Position numbers and translations under genes: made by a program. Shown piece by piece: positions 1 to 36,723 of a stretch of 43,057 nt of DNA. Each line of letters begins with the position of its first letter. The stretch's first letter is position 1. The stretch spans positions 1 to 43,057 of the IMG/VR virus record IMGVR_UViG_3300025767_001696; one strand, given 5' to 3'. The notes beneath the pieces were generated by a model, which made no database searches, had not been told where the DNA came from, and saw only the letters and a program-made list of their open reading frames with translations. Origin of the DNA: a virus.

Positions 1-1230
1 TGATGTTACTCTTTTTTTCTTAACATCTCTTTCTGATACACCTGGCACATCTTCTAAGTTTTCTTCCCACGCAATTCCTGCCTCATCGCCAATCATACCT
101 TCGTACGGACAAGGTGTACCTGCCATCTTCATAGCAGTCCATACACGCTCGTCTTGACACATTAGCGATACAGCAGCTACACGCATACCCATATCGTATA
201 TTGTCTTAGCAAGTTTGATACGCTCACAGTTTGTGTCAGTAATACTCTTACCACCAGAGAAGCCAAAGATTTGTGTTTGTACAGCACCGCTGATACCTGT
301 AGTACACAAGTCTTGCGAAAACGAACTGCCAATAGAAGGAGCAATAGCGGACGGAGGAGGAGACTCAATCTTTTGATTTATTGTCTGCTCTGATTGTGTC
401 TGGTTAATGTTCTGATTTACATTCTCGTTTTTATTTGTATTATCAGTTGTTACCGTACTTGTGCTGTTAGATACACTTTCCGAGGTCGATGTTGACTCGT
501 TAATATTTTTATTTGTGTTGTCAGAAGTTGATTCTGATGTATTAGTGTTTACATTGTTATTATTACTAGTGCTTACATTGGTGTTGCTGTTTACATTGTT
601 ACTGGTCGATGTATTTGTATTTGTATTGTTGCTAGTAGAAGTATTGTTGTTGGTATTTGTATTTGTCGCTGTACTAACACTGGTGTTGTTATTTGTATTA
701 GTCGAAGTACTAGTGTTGACATTTGTATTAATATTAGTATTTTTGTTAGTCGAGGTACTGGTGTTAACATTGGTGTTGCTGTTTGTGTTCACGTTAGTCG
801 CAGTACTGGTATTAACATTATTATTGTTGTTAGTATTTGTGTTTGTAGTACCGCCGCTCATCACATTGTTGTTGGTATTCACATTCGTGTTTGTGGCTGT
901 AGATGTACTAGTATTTGTATTGCTATTAGTATTTGTGTTAGCCGAAGTATTGGTATTGACATTAGTATTGTTGTTAGTATTCGTGCTTACATTGGTGTTG
1001 CTGCTTGTGTTAGTGCTCGTATTGGTATTAACATTATTATTACTGTTATTATTAGTATTAGTGGTTGTAGCAGTTGATGTAGATGTAGACGTTGAGCTGA
1101 TATTAGTATCCGCAGCAGACCCTTCACAGTACTGAGTCCCCAAGGTACAGGTACCCGATGCTTGTGCATGTAATGTGTTTGAAAATATAGGAGTCATCAG
1201 GAGCATAATAAGAAACGATAAGCGCTTCAT
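1..1230 (-). CDS. Exported protein with long Asn/Thr/Ser tract (3' end outside window)
   Basis: The open frame starts at ATG 1230 and runs off the left edge (410 codons seen). AGAGG lies 8 nt before the start. The first ~23 residues (MKRLSFLIMLLMTPIFSNTL, then HAQA) form a signal peptide. Residues ~43-265 are a low-complexity tract made almost only of Asn, Thr and Ser with scattered Val. After a Gln/Asn-rich linker and a Pro-rich hinge, a folded domain follows with conserved-looking Cys residues (DLCTT, TNCERIKLAK, SLMCQDERVW, GTPCPYEG). The folded part resembles a domain I associate with marine T4-like phages, but I cannot name a family. Export suggests a surface or envelope role; the tract may be a flexible spacer. 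The plus-strand ORF over this region is its antisense shadow. Confidence 0.8.
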   Translation of the reverse strand, partial: MKRLSFLIMLLMTPIFSNTLHAQASGTCTLGTQYCEGSAADTNISSTSTSTSTATTTNTNNNSNNNVNTNTSTNTSSNTNVSTNTNNNTNVNTNTSANTNTNSNTNTSTSTATNTNVNTNNNVMSGGTTNTNTNNNNNVNTSTATNVNTNSNTNVNTSTSTNKNTNINTNVNTSTSTNTNNNTSVSTATNTNTNNNTSTSNNTNTNTSTSNNVNSNTNVSTSNNNNVNTNTSESTSDNTNKNINESTSTSESVSNSTSTVTTDNTNKNENVNQNINQTQSEQTINQKIESPPPSAIAPSIGSSFSQDLCTTGISGAVQTQIFGFSGGKSITDTNCERIKLAKTIYDMGMRVAAVSLMCQDERVWTAMKMAGTPCPYEGMIGDEAGIAWEENLEDVPGVSERDVKKKRVTS

Positions 1231-1257: not shown

Positions 1258-1625
1258 GATGTTATTTATCTCGGACGAGCATTAGATGTGTGGAGGACTT
1301 GGGTAACAAGGCTCCTCCGAACCCCGATGAAGTTTACGCCGCTAGGCGCACGTCTCCATAGTAATCGTCATTAGCTGCGATTATAGTTTTGCTTCTAGTT
1401 TAACGACCTTCTGCGTTAGTCGATTCTCCACATGCCTTCAGTTGCCTGTCGAATCCATATCAGCCCCATTAAAAAGAACACTCCCTAACTAACCCTTGCA
1501 AAGGTTATGTCAGAGGAGGCTACCATAGCCTAGGATAGTACGGCTTATCGAAGGAGTGCTCTTATTGGTGGAGCCGAGGGGATTTGAACCCCTGTCCAGA
1601 CTTCCTATTACATGCTTCATCGAAT
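1258..1625 (-). ncRNA. ssrA: Circularly permuted (two-piece) tmRNA
   Basis: Trans-translation RNA with its halves in permuted order. The acceptor piece comes first (about 1625 to 1566): AAGCATGTA, a T arm with loop TTCAAAT between AGGGG and CCCCT, then CGGCTCCACCA ending at 1566. A 98-nt intervening segment (1468-1565) follows. The coding piece starts at 1467 with GGGGCTGATATGGATTCGAC. GGGGCUG (1467-1461) pairs with CGGCUCC (1576-1570) as a 7-bp acceptor stem containing the G3-U70 pair read by alanyl-tRNA synthetase. The tag frame begins at GCA 1378 and encodes AANDDYYGDVRLAA, with stop TAA at 1336-1334. A hairpin (GGAGGA..TCCTCC) follows the tag. Near-complementary acactcc (1479-1485) and ggagtgct flank the intervening loop. 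Permuted tmRNA is known from alphaproteobacteria, cyanobacteria and some betaproteobacteria. The 5' limit of the acceptor piece and 3' limit of the coding piece are estimates. Confidence 0.92.
1263..1270 (-). promoter_or_regulatory. Possible T4-type late promoter element
   Basis: On the minus strand GATAAATA differs from the T4 late promoter consensus TATAAATA only at its first base. It lies 33 nt before the start of the exported Asn/Thr-rich protein, a sensible distance for a late leader. It also lies close to the presumed 3' end of the tmRNA coding piece, so it could simply be part of that RNA. Weak call. Confidence 0.3.
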
Positions 1626-1659
1626 TCTTTTACAACAATATTACAAATTTGTAATACAT

Positions 1660-2376
1660 TCAACTATACATCTTTTGATACACAGCAATATTATAAAAGC
1701 TACTGTTATCTAGATATCTTTTTTCATCCTGCTCTAATACACTTCTGTATATATCATTAATATTGACAAATCTATGTTTAGATATAGCGCATGAAGTAGC
1801 TACATTCTTGGTAATATCAGATACACTTACACAAGTAAAATAATCTTCATAATAAGATAACGGTGGTAATCCCGGTGCAGCCTGTATTAATAGTCCGCCA
1901 GGCTTAAGTACTCTGTAGCATTCTGAAACATACTGCTCAAACGGATCATAATATAAGCACGCCTCTACCGTTGTAAGTATATCAACACTTTCATCAGAGA
2001 AAGGTAAATTTGTAGCGCTTGACAAATAAAAATCTATATCGTCATATACATCATTGCAAAATTCAATATGTATTGGGGTAATGTCAACACCAGCAAGACT
2101 ATCAAAATTATAGTAGTCTTTGTAAAAAGACAGTCCCCCGCCTTTCCCACAACTGATATCTACAAGATTTCCTTTTGATGTGTGAGGTGTAACATTGGCG
2201 ACATCAAGCATTTTTCTGTATAGATTAACTTGATATCGCCAGTTGCTATATTTTGGTAATAGATTTATGTAATTGTCAACAGGGTAGCCATGGTCGTCTA
2301 AATCGACATAACCGTCATTCATAAAAATAAAATTATCGCCAACGAACGAACTTGTATATCTATCAACAACATTCAT
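1660..2376 (-). CDS. Class I SAM-dependent methyltransferase
   Basis: 238 residues. Motif I is LVDISCGKGGGLSFY (residues ~72-86), an acidic residue ends strand 2 (GVDITP), and VDILTTVEACLYYDPF with YRVLKPGGLLI matches the Methyltransf_11-type fold. It therefore binds SAM and probably methylates a small molecule or sugar; the substrate cannot be read. It sits between tRNA-Arg and the tmRNA. A T4-type late element (TATAAATA) lies 25 nt before its start, and a 12-bp direct repeat (cgaattctttta at 1621-1632 and 2391-2402) flanks it, as if it were inserted cargo. It is visibly richer in A+T than the 3-4 kb genes. Confidence 0.8.
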   Translation of the reverse strand: MNVVDRYTSSFVGDNFIFMNDGYVDLDDHGYPVDNYINLLPKYSNWRYQVNLYRKMLDVANVTPHTSKGNLVDISCGKGGGLSFYKDYYNFDSLAGVDITPIHIEFCNDVYDDIDFYLSSATNLPFSDESVDILTTVEACLYYDPFEQYVSECYRVLKPGGLLIQAAPGLPPLSYYEDYFTCVSVSDITKNVATSCAISKHRFVNINDIYRSVLEQDEKRYLDNSSFYNIAVYQKMYS

Positions 2377-2400
2377 AATATATATTTCAACGAATTCTTT

Positions 2401-2409: not shown

Positions 2410-2486
2410 TGGTACACCCTGATGGGCTCGAACCATCAACCTACGCCTTAGAAGGGCGTTGCTCTATCCAATTGAGCTAAGGGTGC
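2410..2486 (-). tRNA. tRNA-Arg (anticodon UCU)
   Basis: 77 nt including an encoded CCA. Acceptor GCACCCT pairs with AGGGTGT (a G-U at the first pair), the D arm is GCTCAATTGGATAGAGC, the anticodon stem is ACGCC/GGCGT around loop CTTCTAA, and the T arm is GATGG-TTCGAGC-CCATC. Anticodon UCU reads AGA and AGG, which are rare in many GC-richer hosts, so the tRNA may support translation of phage genes. Confidence 0.95.
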
Positions 2487-2738: not shown

Positions 2739-3311
2739 TTAACCTCTCACCATCTCATAAATTTCTCGCCAGCTCTTTACTAGCGGAATATTACTATTAT
2801 AGTCCATATTGTGTCCGTGTTCAACTATAATTGAGTTTAAACCGAGCTTAGCTCCTACTTCAGCGTTCTGATACTTGTCTTCAATCCATAAGAGACCTGA
2901 GTCTTTATATTGCTCTAAAGCTTCGTCTTTGTCCGCCCCAGTGTCGAGGCACACAACATCATCTATTGCAGTACCAAAGAGCTTAGCGAGATTCTTCTTA
3001 CGTAAATCAACCGCATGAGGCTGCGTACTTAGCGAGGTTATAACCTTAAATATATACCCACATTCTTCATGAAGCTTTTTCACATAGTGCATTGCATCGC
3101 GAAGCGGTGGCAAGTAACCTATTGAGGCCGACTCATTAAAAAATTTAACAAGCGAGTTAGCCTTATCCTTTGGTATATTATACCTTTTATTAATGTTGTA
3201 GGAGAGAGGCTCTATCAGTGTATGACCTTTCTCTGTCATCCAGATGTTGAAGGCGTACTCCCAATCGAGCAGCACACCATCGCAATCTGTTAATATTAAT
3301 TTATTATACAT
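2739..3311 (-). CDS. HAD-superfamily hydrolase
   Basis: 190 residues. Motif I LTDCDGVLLDW (residues 7-17) supplies the nucleophile Asp and the acid/base Asp. VITSLST is a motif II candidate (Ser/Thr after a beta strand), and the C-terminal LLWIEDKYQNAEVGAKLG carries the acidic motif IV. These phosphatases act on small phosphorylated compounds such as nucleotides; the exact substrate is unknown. AAGGAAAC precedes the start, which overlaps the upstream gene by 8 nt. Related HAD proteins are common in marine T4-like phages. Confidence 0.75.
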   Translation of the reverse strand: MYNKLILTDCDGVLLDWEYAFNIWMTEKGHTLIEPLSYNINKRYNIPKDKANSLVKFFNESASIGYLPPLRDAMHYVKKLHEECGYIFKVITSLSTQPHAVDLRKKNLAKLFGTAIDDVVCLDTGADKDEALEQYKDSGLLWIEDKYQNAEVGAKLGLNSIIVEHGHNMDYNSNIPLVKSWREIYEMVRG

Positions 3312-3654
3312 TTGTTTCCTTTTTTCTATCTATTATTTTACTTAGTTTATAATCGTACCAGGAGTCCCTAAAATGACCTGTACCCTCTAACGGGATAGGT
3401 ATATCATACTCCTCATTGTAGCAATTCTCATCTGCGGGAATTGTTACGAAGCCTGTAAAGTTAGGATTCTTCTCCGCGTACTTGTCAGCACGGTAGCATC
3501 CGGTCTCGTAGTAGAGCTTCTTATTGACCTTCTTAGCACTATCATCAAACATACGTTCAATCCAAGGCTTGTATGCAAACACAGCGATGTTAGCTTTGGT
3601 GCCGCAGGGTAAGACTCTCGTCTTACCCGTCACCTTGTAGACGTAGTCACCCAT
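3304..3654 (-). CDS. Conserved phage-type hypothetical protein
   Basis: 116 residues with no recognised family. The protein is rich in Tyr, Lys and Asp, has no signal peptide or membrane segment, and ends in a basic tail (KIIDRKKETNV). It overlaps the DUF932 gene stop by one base (TAATG) and the HAD gene start by 8 nt, so it is translated within one operon. No function is proposed. Confidence 0.65.
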   Translation of the reverse strand: MGDYVYKVTGKTRVLPCGTKANIAVFAYKPWIERMFDDSAKKVNKKLYYETGCYRADKYAEKNPNFTGFVTIPADENCYNEEYDIPIPLEGTGHFRDSWYDYKLSKIIDRKKETNV

Positions 3655-4601
3655 TATGCAGCCTCCGCCATTTCAACTGCAAGCTGCAGTGCGTTGTTCT
3701 TACGATCCTTATTGACGCCAAACCAGGCAGATCGAAGTCTTGAATCTGCGTCACGACCCAGCTCGTGATCAGTTAAGTAGGTAACAGCGTTAAGAGCTTG
3801 CCACCAAGTACCCTTTCCGAACTCAGCACCAGGTTGATGCTCTACTACTTCAAGAGCTCGCTCTGCAGCTCGAGACAGCTTGATCTTCTCACCTGACTCG
3901 TTCTTAGCTGAGTAGCCAGGGAACACGCTAGCAAAGTAGTCTTCAAGACTAACGACATTGAACTTCTTCTTAGAAAGAAACTCAGCCGCTTCCTTATAAG
4001 TCTCGAACTTCTCTTTAGCGATACCGATCGCATCCTTCATTGCATCTACATCAAACGCCTGACGGTGATTCTGAGTAGACTTAACATCTGAGTGCGTTCC
4101 TAATGAGAACGATAACGTATTATTACACACCACTCGAATAGGAGTCGAACGAACATGAATACCGCTACCGAACTTATGAGGGTTAACTAGCAGCAGATAC
4201 TGCTCTGTAACGTCATCGTTGAAGAGGGCGAACTGCTCTTTCATCTTAGCAAGTCCCCATACAATCTGACCATTCTTAAGAGAGCCAGCTGTATTCATTT
4301 CCAGTTCACCGGCCTCTACAAACTCTTCGAAGATAGCGAACGCGTCTTCGTTCTGACAAGGCTCCCAGGTATCTGAAACAGTATCAAGAAACTTGTTATC
4401 AGTTTCACGCAAGAGCGCAAATTTACCTGAGTTAATAACTTGACCGTTCACATCGTAGAACATCGGAGACTTAGTAACACCCCAATCGATCTCAGCTGCT
4501 TTCATCATATCCTTAACGCTTAGAGTCTCTTCTACTCGTACACCTAAACCGTGCCAGGGAGTCTCACCTGCGTAAGCCATCGTTTCAACCATATGTGACA
4601 T
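3654..4601 (-). CDS. DUF932 / phage-plasmid-like protein (TIGR03299 type)
   Basis: 315 residues. The N-terminus SHMVETMAYAGETPWHGLG is typical of the DUF932 family found on phages and plasmids. Further family-like parts are the central IRVVCNNTLSFSL and the C-terminal WQALNAVTYLTDHELGR. The role of the family is not established, though it often sits near recombination or replication genes. The start follows AAGGAAATATATTATGTC, a leader identical over 18 nt to that of the winged-helix gene at 11362. This suggests both are expressed strongly early. First large gene downstream of the promoter at 4982-5010. Confidence 0.85.
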   Translation of the reverse strand: MSHMVETMAYAGETPWHGLGVRVEETLSVKDMMKAAEIDWGVTKSPMFYDVNGQVINSGKFALLRETDNKFLDTVSDTWEPCQNEDAFAIFEEFVEAGELEMNTAGSLKNGQIVWGLAKMKEQFALFNDDVTEQYLLLVNPHKFGSGIHVRSTPIRVVCNNTLSFSLGTHSDVKSTQNHRQAFDVDAMKDAIGIAKEKFETYKEAAEFLSKKKFNVVSLEDYFASVFPGYSAKNESGEKIKLSRAAERALEVVEHQPGAEFGKGTWWQALNAVTYLTDHELGRDADSRLRSAWFGVNKDRKNNALQLAVEMAEAA

Positions 4602-5585: not shown

Positions 5586-7157
5586 CTACGAAGATGGATA
5601 CTTCCATTCTGCTGAATTAATGACTTCGCTATGAGTGAGATGTTTTTTAACAAATTCATCTATACTAATTTTAATATTATCAAGATGATAACTATTAAGA
5701 GGAGATACATCATGAGATACTTTAAGCATATTTAAACCTACACCAACCTGACAATATGATGGTTGGCCAAATATAAGAGGAAAACAGCTTACCTGGTGTG
5801 TGTCAGTTATACCATTGTTGAGCATGTGCACTTTAGCCATTGTTCTATCAAAGAGTATGTTTTTCTGTCTAAACTCTTTCCAAAATTTTGTATCATCTCT
5901 ATCGCTAATGTAATGAAACTGAATGAATTCTGCAGTATCCTGATTTGATTCTCTGCAATATTCGTTTACTCTATTGCATATCATTTGCTGCAGGTTTATA
6001 TCTTGTTCCGAGTTATCACTAGATATGAAAGACTGGAATAGACCGTTACGATAGGCGTACATCAGCTGATCAATACATAGATAGAGCGATGTTGCTTCTA
6101 AAGGCTCAACAAAGCTGCTTGATAGACCTGCAGCAAAAGAATTATTAATTGCGGTTTTATTAAAGTAGCCTGCTTTAAATTTAAATGTCTTCTCGCCTAT
6201 CATAGCGTCAGGATACATTTGTTTAATTCTTGCTCTTACAGTATCATTATCTACATAATCAGAATCGTATACGTACCCGCAACCATATCTATGCTGTAAA
6301 GGTATTTTCCATATCCATCCGTCATCCTGTGCAATAGATTCAGTCCACGGATTTACCTCTTCAAGATCTTGTACTGGTAAGAAGAACGGTTGAGCTTCTT
6401 TCATAGGAAGATTTTCACTCAAACTAATCCATTCTGAATTGTAAGTTTTGCCATTTATAAGGCGTGCAAAACCAGTACTATCTATTATATAATCAACTTC
6501 ATATTTTCCATTGCTTTCTAAATCTAGAGAAGAAATATATTTCTTATCATCTAGGTTTACTTCTAGTACCTTGTCGTTTATAACTTTAATACCGCGCTCA
6601 ACAGCTACTTTTTCTAAGTAGGCAGCAAGTTCCCCAGCGTCGAAATGAACGGCAAAACTTACCGAGTTTCGTGTTAAACTTTTAAATACATTAATATTAT
6701 GTTGATTAATTTCGTCTCGACTTAAACTAACAAAGCTATTATTTTCTACAAACGGACTCTTACAGCAGTTTGCTAACTGATACGGAATACTATAATCGTC
6801 ATAATTTTTACCCTCACGTACAACATTTTTAAAAAAATCACCATTGACAAGAAACGCGGCTGGTTCATGTATATGGAAGCCATGAAAGTAACTGCCCTTA
6901 TCTTTCGTCCAGTTAGTAAATTTGATACCGGTTTTTAATGTAGTGTTTGTGTTTTTAAATAATTGGAAGATTGATATGTTGAGCTCATTTTCTAGAAAAT
7001 CTACCATATGAGGAGTCGTGCCCTCACCGGCTCCTAGAATACCAATTTTATCGTCTTTGATTAATGTAACGTTATATTCTGGGTATTTACATTTAATAAA
7101 GAGTGCAGATATAAAGCCCGCTGTACCTCCGCCTATAACAACAAAATTATTTTTCAT
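5586..7157 (-). CDS. Flavin-dependent tryptophan halogenase family protein
   Basis: 523 residues, the usual length of the family (PrnA about 538). The N-terminal VVIGGGTAGFISALF (residues 6-20) is the FAD GxGxxG fold and LGAGEGTTP is the family signature. K75 in TLKTGIKF matches the catalytic Lys that forms the chloramine, and WIWKIPL matches the WxWxIP motif that keeps the enzyme from acting as a monooxygenase. SFVEPLEAT carries the Glu facing the substrate. The family uses FADH2, oxygen and chloride or bromide to halogenate tryptophan or other aromatics. A flavin reductase partner is not seen here. ATGA overlap with the preceding gene. The substrate in a phage is unknown; it may be a peptide, metabolite or signalling compound. 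Confidence 0.88.
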   Translation of the reverse strand: MKNNFVVIGGGTAGFISALFIKCKYPEYNVTLIKDDKIGILGAGEGTTPHMVDFLENELNISIFQLFKNTNTTLKTGIKFTNWTKDKGSYFHGFHIHEPAAFLVNGDFFKNVVREGKNYDDYSIPYQLANCCKSPFVENNSFVSLSRDEINQHNINVFKSLTRNSVSFAVHFDAGELAAYLEKVAVERGIKVINDKVLEVNLDDKKYISSLDLESNGKYEVDYIIDSTGFARLINGKTYNSEWISLSENLPMKEAQPFFLPVQDLEEVNPWTESIAQDDGWIWKIPLQHRYGCGYVYDSDYVDNDTVRARIKQMYPDAMIGEKTFKFKAGYFNKTAINNSFAAGLSSSFVEPLEATSLYLCIDQLMYAYRNGLFQSFISSDNSEQDINLQQMICNRVNEYCRESNQDTAEFIQFHYISDRDDTKFWKEFRQKNILFDRTMAKVHMLNNGITDTHQVSCFPLIFGQPSYCQVGVGLNMLKVSHDVSPLNSYHLDNIKISIDEFVKKHLTHSEVINSAEWKYPSS

Positions 7158-20564: not shown

Positions 20565-21110
20565 ATGTACTATCTTTATTACAATAACCCCGTCAAACAA
20601 GTCGAAATCACATCAGAAACCAAGAATGAGCGCGGTCTGGAGATGCTGGAAACCAATGCCTCTCTTGAGTCCTTGGTCGCTCGATCTGCGATGTATACGA
20701 AGATGTACAGGTGCGAGCTTGTAAATGAGTGTGCAGACGAAGTTAACAAGCGTACGCTTAACAAGATTGTTAACAAGAACTTTAGACGTGGACCACATTC
20801 TGATGAAACTAAGCAGAAGATAGCTGATGGCGTATCTGGAGAGAAGAATGGTCGTTATGGCGCTGTTGATCCTAAACATATTCGTTTATCTAAATCAGAG
20901 AAGCTTAAGTTCTATTACAAATATAATGTGCATGGTAAGAAAGGGTATAAAGACTCTGAAGAAACCAAAAAATTAAAATCTAAGAATAACTGTAACAAAG
21001 GGGGATGGTTCTGGATTCATAATCGATCAACTGGAGAAGAGAAACGATGCTACGGTGAAATACCTGAAAACTTTACTCGGGGACGACTCTACAACTATTT
21101 GAATAGCTAA
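20565..21110 (+). CDS. NUMOD-type homing-endonuclease-like protein
   Basis: 181 residues, the only gene read on the plus strand. GPHSDETKQKIADGVSGEKN then GRYG is a NUMOD3-like DNA-binding helix module. GGWFWIHNRSTGEEKRCYGE, then IPENFTRGRLYNY is another module (WIHN...EEKR..IPxxxxxGR) that recurs in phage endonuclease-related proteins. A catalytic GIY-YIG or HNH core is not evident; the N-terminal ~75 residues are unassigned. It may be a degenerate free-standing homing endonuclease. The opposite strand and position at the end of two units fit insertion of a mobile gene. It overlaps the 3' end of the RecB-type gene by 4 nt, tail to tail. Confidence 0.65.
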   Translation: MYYLYYNNPVKQVEITSETKNERGLEMLETNASLESLVARSAMYTKMYRCELVNECADEVNKRTLNKIVNKNFRRGPHSDETKQKIADGVSGEKNGRYGAVDPKHIRLSKSEKLKFYYKYNVHGKKGYKDSEETKKLKSKNNCNKGGWFWIHNRSTGEEKRCYGEIPENFTRGRLYNYLNS

Positions 21111-35216: not shown

Positions 35217-36290
35217 TCAAATTGTGTTTTTAGCGATAGCTTGCTGTAGTGTTTCTCTCAACTTATCAATATTAATCTCCAGATGAGAGTTTTTAGGTTT
35301 AGCACGCTCTGGCGGCATTCCTTTTGTCTGCGCTACTAGTGTATGCCAATTCAATTCGCATATATCAGCTATATTGTTCCAACCGCATTCCTCCGCAACT
35401 TCGAATTCATGATTGAAGTCTATTACTGTACTGCCTGGCTTCATAGCATGTGTATGTGTAAGACCAGCACCAGTGGGTGAAACAATAATATCAGCAGCTG
35501 CAAACAGTTTTAATTTTTCATTAAGCGACATATTTGACATGCTATTGTCTTTATGAGTATTGAATGGTACAAAATCAAACTCATTAACGAGCATATCAAT
35601 AACCGCCGGCTCGTTAGTTACATTTCTTGCTACTGCATCATTACGTGAAATATAGACTCTCTTAAACTCACCTACATCTCTAGTTTTAAGATTGTCTTTA
35701 AGAAACTCAACAACCCACGATGCAACACGACCTCTGTATGAGATAGCAGGATAAGTTGCCGCATGTACCTTGTTTGATACGACAAGGCATGGTGTATCAA
35801 GCTCGATTATTCTTTCTTTGATATCTGGAAAATAGGATAGGGAATCAAGCTGATACTGTTTGAGGTGATTTGTAACAATAGGTATATCCGGCTTCTGTCT
35901 GAAAGCCTCGATGAGAGGAAGATCCTCAAAGAACCAATGCCAATACTGACCTATATTGAACCATGTAAAACATTCATTTATCGTATGTCTATCAGCATAG
36001 GTATTGTCAATGTCAATCTGAAAGGAGTCTTTAGCGTGCGACCAAAAAGGACTTTTAATTCGAAAGTTTTGAGCGTCTTTGGTAAAGCGCTCGTGATAGA
36101 ACTTGTTGTCTTTTACGACACCAGCTAAGCCATGTTCCCAGCTTCCACTAGTTAAGACGCAATCTTCGAATGTAACTATCTCACATGAAGGAGCAGTATA
36201 ACTAAACACTCTATCGGAGATAATGTAACTACGATTTTCAGACGGCCTTACAACAATACCTTCAGGCGTCTTCGCCTCCATCACTAACAT
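35217..36290 (-). CDS. GT61 (DUF563) glycosyltransferase
   Basis: 357 residues; ATG 36281 (M4) is an alternative start. GQYWHWFFEDLPLIEAF, KRVYISRNDAVARNVTNEP and ADIIVSPTGAGLTHTHAMKP, then GSTVIDF are the conserved blocks of the GT61 family, which includes xylosyl- and N-acetylglucosaminyltransferases. First gene of the glycan cassette in transcription order. It overlaps the GIY-YIG-like gene by 29 nt. Confidence 0.82.
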   Translation of the reverse strand: MLVMEAKTPEGIVVRPSENRSYIISDRVFSYTAPSCEIVTFEDCVLTSGSWEHGLAGVVKDNKFYHERFTKDAQNFRIKSPFWSHAKDSFQIDIDNTYADRHTINECFTWFNIGQYWHWFFEDLPLIEAFRQKPDIPIVTNHLKQYQLDSLSYFPDIKERIIELDTPCLVVSNKVHAATYPAISYRGRVASWVVEFLKDNLKTRDVGEFKRVYISRNDAVARNVTNEPAVIDMLVNEFDFVPFNTHKDNSMSNMSLNEKLKLFAAADIIVSPTGAGLTHTHAMKPGSTVIDFNHEFEVAEECGWNNIADICELNWHTLVAQTKGMPPERAKPKNSHLEINIDKLRETLQQAIAKNTI

Positions 36291-36723
36291 AATCTTCTCT
36301 CAAACCTTTCACGTGCTTAGAATGAATCTTAACACCTATGAATTCATTGTAATAATCATCTCTGAATAATACATCGTTATCAAACTGAAGTTTGGCTTCT
36401 ACGTAAGAGAGCTCACCACGAGTCTTACATTTTTTAAGTATCTCTCTCTTAAATCTAGATGATCCAGATTCTTCTACTAACCTCTTTACTTCCTCGCTCG
36501 AACCATAGTAGTCTTTCCAGTCTGATTCTTTCTTCTGTATTCGTTTATTCTTCTTACCTTTTAGCGGAGGTAATTTTTTTGTTGACCAGAAGAACTTCTT
36601 TCCTATGTACTTCTTGTCGTTGGTGAGATCTGTAATTAGATATACAAACCCGTAATATTCGTCTATGTCCTCCGCTGAATAGATCTCACCTTCGTACAGC
36701 CAATCACTCATTGTCATCATCAA
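36262..36723 (-). CDS. GIY-YIG-like nuclease domain protein
   Basis: 153 residues; ATG 36711 (M5) overlaps the previous stop and may be the true start. YGFVYLITDLTNDKKYIGKK is a GIY-YIG-like motif pair (GFVY...KYIG), KKESDWKDYYGSSEEVKRLV holds a YYGSS typical of the phage branch, and ELSYVEAKLQFD supplies the catalytic Glu. Proteins of this type occur widely in T4-like phages as putative endonucleases. Basic loop KGKKNKRIQKK may bind DNA. Confidence 0.7.
   Translation of the reverse strand: MMMTMSDWLYEGEIYSAEDIDEYYGFVYLITDLTNDKKYIGKKFFWSTKKLPPLKGKKNKRIQKKESDWKDYYGSSEEVKRLVEESGSSRFKREILKKCKTRGELSYVEAKLQFDNDVLFRDDYYNEFIGVKIHSKHVKGLREDYVSDGGEDA

Follow-up and report, generated by a model that had tools for sequence, protein, structure and literature searches.

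Here, a permuted tmRNA gene was identified on the minus strand (1626-1292) of a viral DNA stretch of 43,057 bases, referred to as the window. It is very likely a genuine and probably functional phage two-piece tmRNA of beta type, the precursor of which would be cut, charged with alanine and used with host SmpB to rescue stalled ribosomes and to add the tag AANDDYYGDVRLAA. ARAGORN called a permuted tmRNA with this tag, and Rfam tmRNA_permuted (RF04321) matched over the full model (1-213) with 85.5 bits as compared to a cut-off of 47 (E 3.9e-15). Searches of both kinds had been proposed in a first-pass annotation of the window, which had described the tmRNA halves in reversed order around a 98-nt loop: the ends that it gave (1566 and 1467) and the loop length were exact, and the 7-bp acceptor stem with G3-U70, the T arm, the CCA and the open tag frame that it had listed are all present (Table 1), on the minus strand, no strand having been named there. 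Its extent of 1258-1625 located the gene correctly but reached slightly too far at 1258, as the conserved structure stops at the pseudoknot hairpin (1292). The calls by two independent finders (ARAGORN and Rfam), together with covariation in 19 distinct relatives, show that the gene is not a chance occurrence.

Table 1. Coordinates of the tmRNA gene parts and neighboring features; positions refer to the window unless a related viral contig (L number) is given.
Feature	Position	Strand	Remarks
Acceptor (tRNA-like 3') piece, first in gene	1566..1626	-	~61 nt; encoded CCACCA at end, terminal A = 1566
T arm	1577..1593	-	5 pairs + 7-nt loop, AGGGG TTCAAAT CCCCT; 4/5 pairs double-changed
Acceptor stem, 3' strand CGGCTCC	1570..1576	-	pairs with 1467-1461
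Acceptor stem, 5' strand GGGGCTG	1461..1467	-	7 pairs including G3-U70
Intervening sequence (spacer)	1468..1565	-	98 nt, branched hairpin, excision expected
Coding (mRNA-like) piece	1292..1467	-	~176 nt, from G1 of acceptor stem to post-tag pseudoknot
Tag reading frame AANDDYYGDVRLAA	1334..1378	-	ARAGORN; resume codon GCA, stop TAA
Post-tag pseudoknot	1292..1325	-	beta_tmRNA alignment; GGAGGA/TCCTCC stem; GGGGT with ACCC of loop GCCTTGTTACCCAAG, this second stem read by eye
Class I SAM methyltransferase gene	1660..2376	-	Pfam Methyltransf_11, 3e-16; between tRNA-Arg and tmRNA
Displaced copy of tmRNA start (AAAGAATTCGTTGAA)	2386..2400	-	intact copy = 1616-1630
tRNA-Arg (TCT)	2410..2486	-	ARAGORN + Rfam; upstream of tmRNA, same strand
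abiF RNA	L015 7820-7857; L127 5582-5618; L226 2617-2654		RF03085

The relatives were gathered by pattern scans of viral contigs, and 19 distinct genes were aligned without their spacers and compared over 28 named pairs. Double changes were detected in 16 of these pairs, amounting to 66 double-changed cells in the 19 genes as compared to 19 expected from shuffles. The named pairs were formed in 92.9% of cases as compared to 40-54% in all slid registers, with none of 500 shuffles coming near; as the pairs were named on the window's own sequence, some excess over the slid registers is expected, whereas compensatory changes are not. T arm and acceptor stem were 100% paired across all 19 genes, the G-U at the third acceptor pair (G3-U70) was invariant (19/19), and the arms of the post-tag hairpin covaried (50 of 54 cells paired vs. 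32.7 after arm shuffling). Moreover, all relatives detected by ARAGORN possess an open tag frame, mostly with an LAA end (e.g., AANDDYYEGLRLAA and ANDDVYALAA). These observations bear on the alternative that the phage produces a decoy, i.e., a tmRNA-like molecule binding up the SmpB or alanyl-tRNA synthetase of the host, so that host rescue is blocked instead of performed. A precedent exists in the CDS-less tmRNA of mycobacteriophage DS6A, a phage-borne tmRNA relative reported to inhibit endogenous tmRNA in E. coli (PMC11915505); however, this molecule has no tag frame, whereas tag frame, resume codon, stop and pseudoknot are all kept in the gene described here and co-vary across its relatives, although a pure decoy would need none of them. 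We therefore regard a decoy role as quite improbable.

The window is an IMG/VR virus record with 39.4% G+C and encodes T4-like ribonucleotide reductase subunits, primase, dCMP deaminase, PhoH and exonucleases. Contig L002, which matches it at 99.7% identity over 4,292 bases with the same junctions, extends beyond the window edge and encodes an endolysin, a gp33-like late-promoter regulator, a gp59-like helicase loader and a gp32-like protein. The gene is thus phage-borne, as had been annotated, and the contig belongs to a T4-like virus, probably one that infects aquatic bacteria. The gene might instead be bacterial, either as a host ssrA picked up by a prophage at its attachment site, since tmRNA genes are common integration sites in bacteria (PMC4383910), or as a result of misassembly. 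However, lytic T4-like genes lie on both sides, the junctions are identical on the second assembled contig, and the exact 21-mer of the pseudoknot was absent from 84,980 species genomes, whereas a 19-mer from within it was found in 12 viral contigs, which renders a bacterial gene extremely improbable. Of the 46 genome loci matched by a looser 18-nt pattern, none had a tmRNA according to ARAGORN, and a search for a bacterial donor among 398 Pseudomonadota genomes yielded two short matches only (45 and 22 nt).

Directly downstream of the tmRNA lies a gene (1-1229, minus strand; complete in L002 at 3063-4313) for a 416-amino-acid protein that consists mostly of T/N/S repeats and has a signal-peptide-like start; the plus-strand ORF at 461-1135 is merely its antisense. 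The window furthermore encodes a flavin-dependent tryptophan halogenase (5586-7157; Pfam PF04820, 8e-86), adjoining several genes resembling glycosyltransferases and 2OG-oxygenases, as well as a NUMOD3 protein on the opposite strand (20565-21110, plus) and a SegE-type GIY-YIG protein (36262-36723, minus), both likely relatives of homing endonucleases.

With regard to the region upstream of the tmRNA, the methyltransferase gene is flanked by copies of the tmRNA start, AAAGAATTCGWTGAA (1616-2400). The related contig L175 represents the empty site: it is devoid of the methyltransferase gene, and tRNA-Arg is followed directly by the tmRNA with a single junction. The arrangement suggests that a gene inserted at the 5' end of the tmRNA and regenerated the tmRNA in doing so. 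In L124 (3477-3563), the tmRNA acceptor piece immediately follows the terminal CCA of a tRNA-Tyr gene, which fixes the 5' end of the window's acceptor piece near 1626 and suggests joint transcription and processing of tRNA-Tyr and tmRNA in that contig. A promoter scan directly upstream of the tmRNA returned chance-level matches only, with no clear promoter, and the terminator scan was uninformative; the frequency of the T4-late-like TATAAATA, present at 2408-2401, was not above expectation. A candidate fluoride riboswitch adjoining the tmRNA (14.9 bits vs. a cut-off of 34) was dismissed as chance.

Within the tmRNA clan, beta_tmRNA (RF01850) was the best model for the window with 63.3 bits (E 7e-19), a score below the curated cut-off of 84, which was exceeded by the relatives L185, L007, L038, L180 and L181. 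The post-tag pseudoknot with GCCUUGUUACC loop is present as in the RF01850 model. The alpha model (RF01849) was not the best for the window, and L178, L182 and L187 pass it weakly. As some relatives pass the alpha and others the beta model, the phage group is mosaic or intermediate. The viral contigs L019 and L062 are of cyano type. In the tree, a split (99/97) divided the phage genes from the permuted tmRNAs of the sampled beta genomes; L007 fell among the bacterial genes and the window tmRNA in a phage-only group. The alignment was short (256 columns), and L185 as well as the phage Melnitz (EXVC044M, MZ577097; PMC9004378) are on long branches with unsure placement. In the sampled bacterial order, the permuted-tmRNA cut-off was passed in 13 of 250 genomes. 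DNA comparison to 50,697 phage records revealed no match to the window tmRNA or to 23 kb of the contig, and thus no isolate phage with a tmRNA of similar sequence. For the tmRNAs of the relatives, similarity in these records was confined to stretches of about 35-50 bases around the T arm. Taken together, the window tmRNA is by sequence a member of a little-described phage lineage of betaproteobacterial type.

The question raised in the first-pass annotation, whether permuted phage tmRNAs are known, can be answered in the affirmative: the kind has been published, with 53 structures of two-piece tmRNA reported across phage genomes (50 being marine or aquatic; PMC9004378), and 79 phage tmRNA sequences have been listed elsewhere (PMC11915505). 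Like the window, the T4-like myovirus Melnitz has a permuted tmRNA close to genes for PhoH and a PD-(D/E)XK exonuclease; gp33-, gp59- and gp32-like genes follow downstream, in a layout resembling that of L008 and L002. By contrast, the Melnitz tmRNA is of alpha type (RF01849, 106.7 bits) with the tag ANDNYVPVDYALAA and a 142-nt spacer, none of which applies to the window, and is followed by a glutamine riboswitch that the window does not have. Since Melnitz combines an alpha-type tmRNA with a beta-lineage host, the tmRNA type does not give the host. The betaproteobacterial permuted tmRNAs (RF01850; G001, G002, G224, G254 and others) resemble the window in piece order, coding-piece layout and post-tag pseudoknot, but the window differs from them by its longer tag (14 vs. 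10 amino acids), its long structured spacer, its separate tree branch and its score below the RF01850 cut-off. The cyano-type permuted tmRNAs (RF01851), phage-borne and permuted as well in L019 and L062, belong to another lineage with long tags ending in VAA and other domain lengths. Phage-borne two-piece tmRNAs are thus known, although unexplained, and the window adds a beta-type lineage distinct from the alpha (Melnitz) and cyano types, so that all three bacterial types of permuted tmRNA seem to occur in phages. Within the openly readable literature, neither the beta-type phage group nor spacer exchange nor an abiF neighbor was found to be described, which is weak evidence given this scope.

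For the phage tmRNA, we propose that a single precursor comprises acceptor piece, hairpin spacer and coding piece, probably together with tRNA-Arg, that host tRNA-processing nucleases cut the spacer out, and that the two pieces are held together by the acceptor stem and the P2 helices. The molecule would be charged with alanine via G3-U70 and, with host SmpB, would rescue ribosomes stalled in infection; AANDDYYGDVRLAA would be appended, the LAA end of which is expected to direct the product to ClpXP. SmpB was not found in seven phage records (the window, five related records and Melnitz), most of which are possibly incomplete, and host SmpB would thus be needed if the tmRNA works. The benefit for the phage might lie in ribosome recycling or in quality control during host mRNA degradation. 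The notion of the first-pass annotation that the tmRNA could replace or compete with host rescue and direct tagged proteins to proteolysis is likewise a functional proposal, to be read conditionally.

The spacers of the phage genes are mostly 67-99 nt long as compared to 24-42 nt in eight sampled beta genomes, exceptions among the phages being L038 (10 nt), L180 (29 nt) and Melnitz. A consensus fold of six sequences, in which three pairs are double-changed, hints at conservation of the window's spacer fold; the window spacer matched no Rfam family at E<=1. Window and L008 are 88% identical over 333 bases of the tmRNA region, other matches being short (70-78%). L184 and L182 match in the tmRNA region alone (95%), and a stretch of 123 bases with 100% identity (spacer and start of the coding piece) is all that L043 and L182 have in common in the loci compared. 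Similarly, L176 and L177 have exactly 116 bases in common (CCACCA, spacer and 12 bases; 99%) and nothing else. In L176 (5085-5200), the spacer hairpin with a few flanking bases stands alone, no tmRNA being present in the whole 27.8-kb record, and six of seven acceptor-stem pairs, as read by eye, are still possible beside the hairpin. That L176 simply reflects a chimeric assembly at a shared repeat was judged unlikely, since neither flank is tmRNA sequence. These comparisons suggest that spacer hairpins have been swapped between otherwise unalignable phages; this exchange and the solitary spacer of L176 both seem new.

Moreover, L015, L127 and L226 each contain an abiF RNA (RF03085; 51-56 bits vs. 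a cut-off of 37), separated from the 5' end of the acceptor piece by a few bases. In C. difficile, abiF RNA counteracts the AbiF toxin (PMC12373285), and its occurrence in a cyanophage has been reported as well (PMC9964418); its position beside phage tmRNA makes a phage antitoxin mimic possible. The hairpin that fills the spacers of L015 and L226 is found free-standing upstream of the tmRNA in L041, L109 and L126.

These findings would fit an alternative in which the spacer is the selected part, i.e., a slot for small hairpin RNAs freed on processing, such as anti-defence decoys or antitoxins, with the tmRNA as carrier; a working tmRNA would be compatible with this. The long phage spacers, the nearly identical spacers in phages not otherwise aligning at the locus, the solitary L176 spacer, the L015-type hairpin outside tmRNA and the adjoining abiF RNA all speak for it. 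However, the tmRNA itself is clearly constrained, as seen from the covariation in 19 genes, the window spacer resembles no Rfam family, the L038 spacer is very short, long hairpins could serve precise processing or precursor stability, and L176 could be a deletion remnant. We therefore consider selection on the spacer unlikely, and a further elaboration, namely that the spacer is a mobile cassette slot in which phages trade hairpin RNAs, with abiF-type antitoxin RNAs adjoining, and from which precursor processing frees an anti-defence small RNA, unlikely as well. The spacer exchange, the tmRNA-less L176 copy and the upstream abiF RNA make it testable whether a second RNA, excised and possibly serving counter-defence, is carried by viral tmRNA genes.

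The hairpin motif AAGTCCT...TGGGCA, for which the scans made matched no Rfam family, is repeated in L109 (8650-8677), L226 (near 2755) and L015 (7954-7981), both inside spacers and free upstream. L126 carries an AAGCCT...GCTCAAATCG version of the abiF RNA with a long insert.
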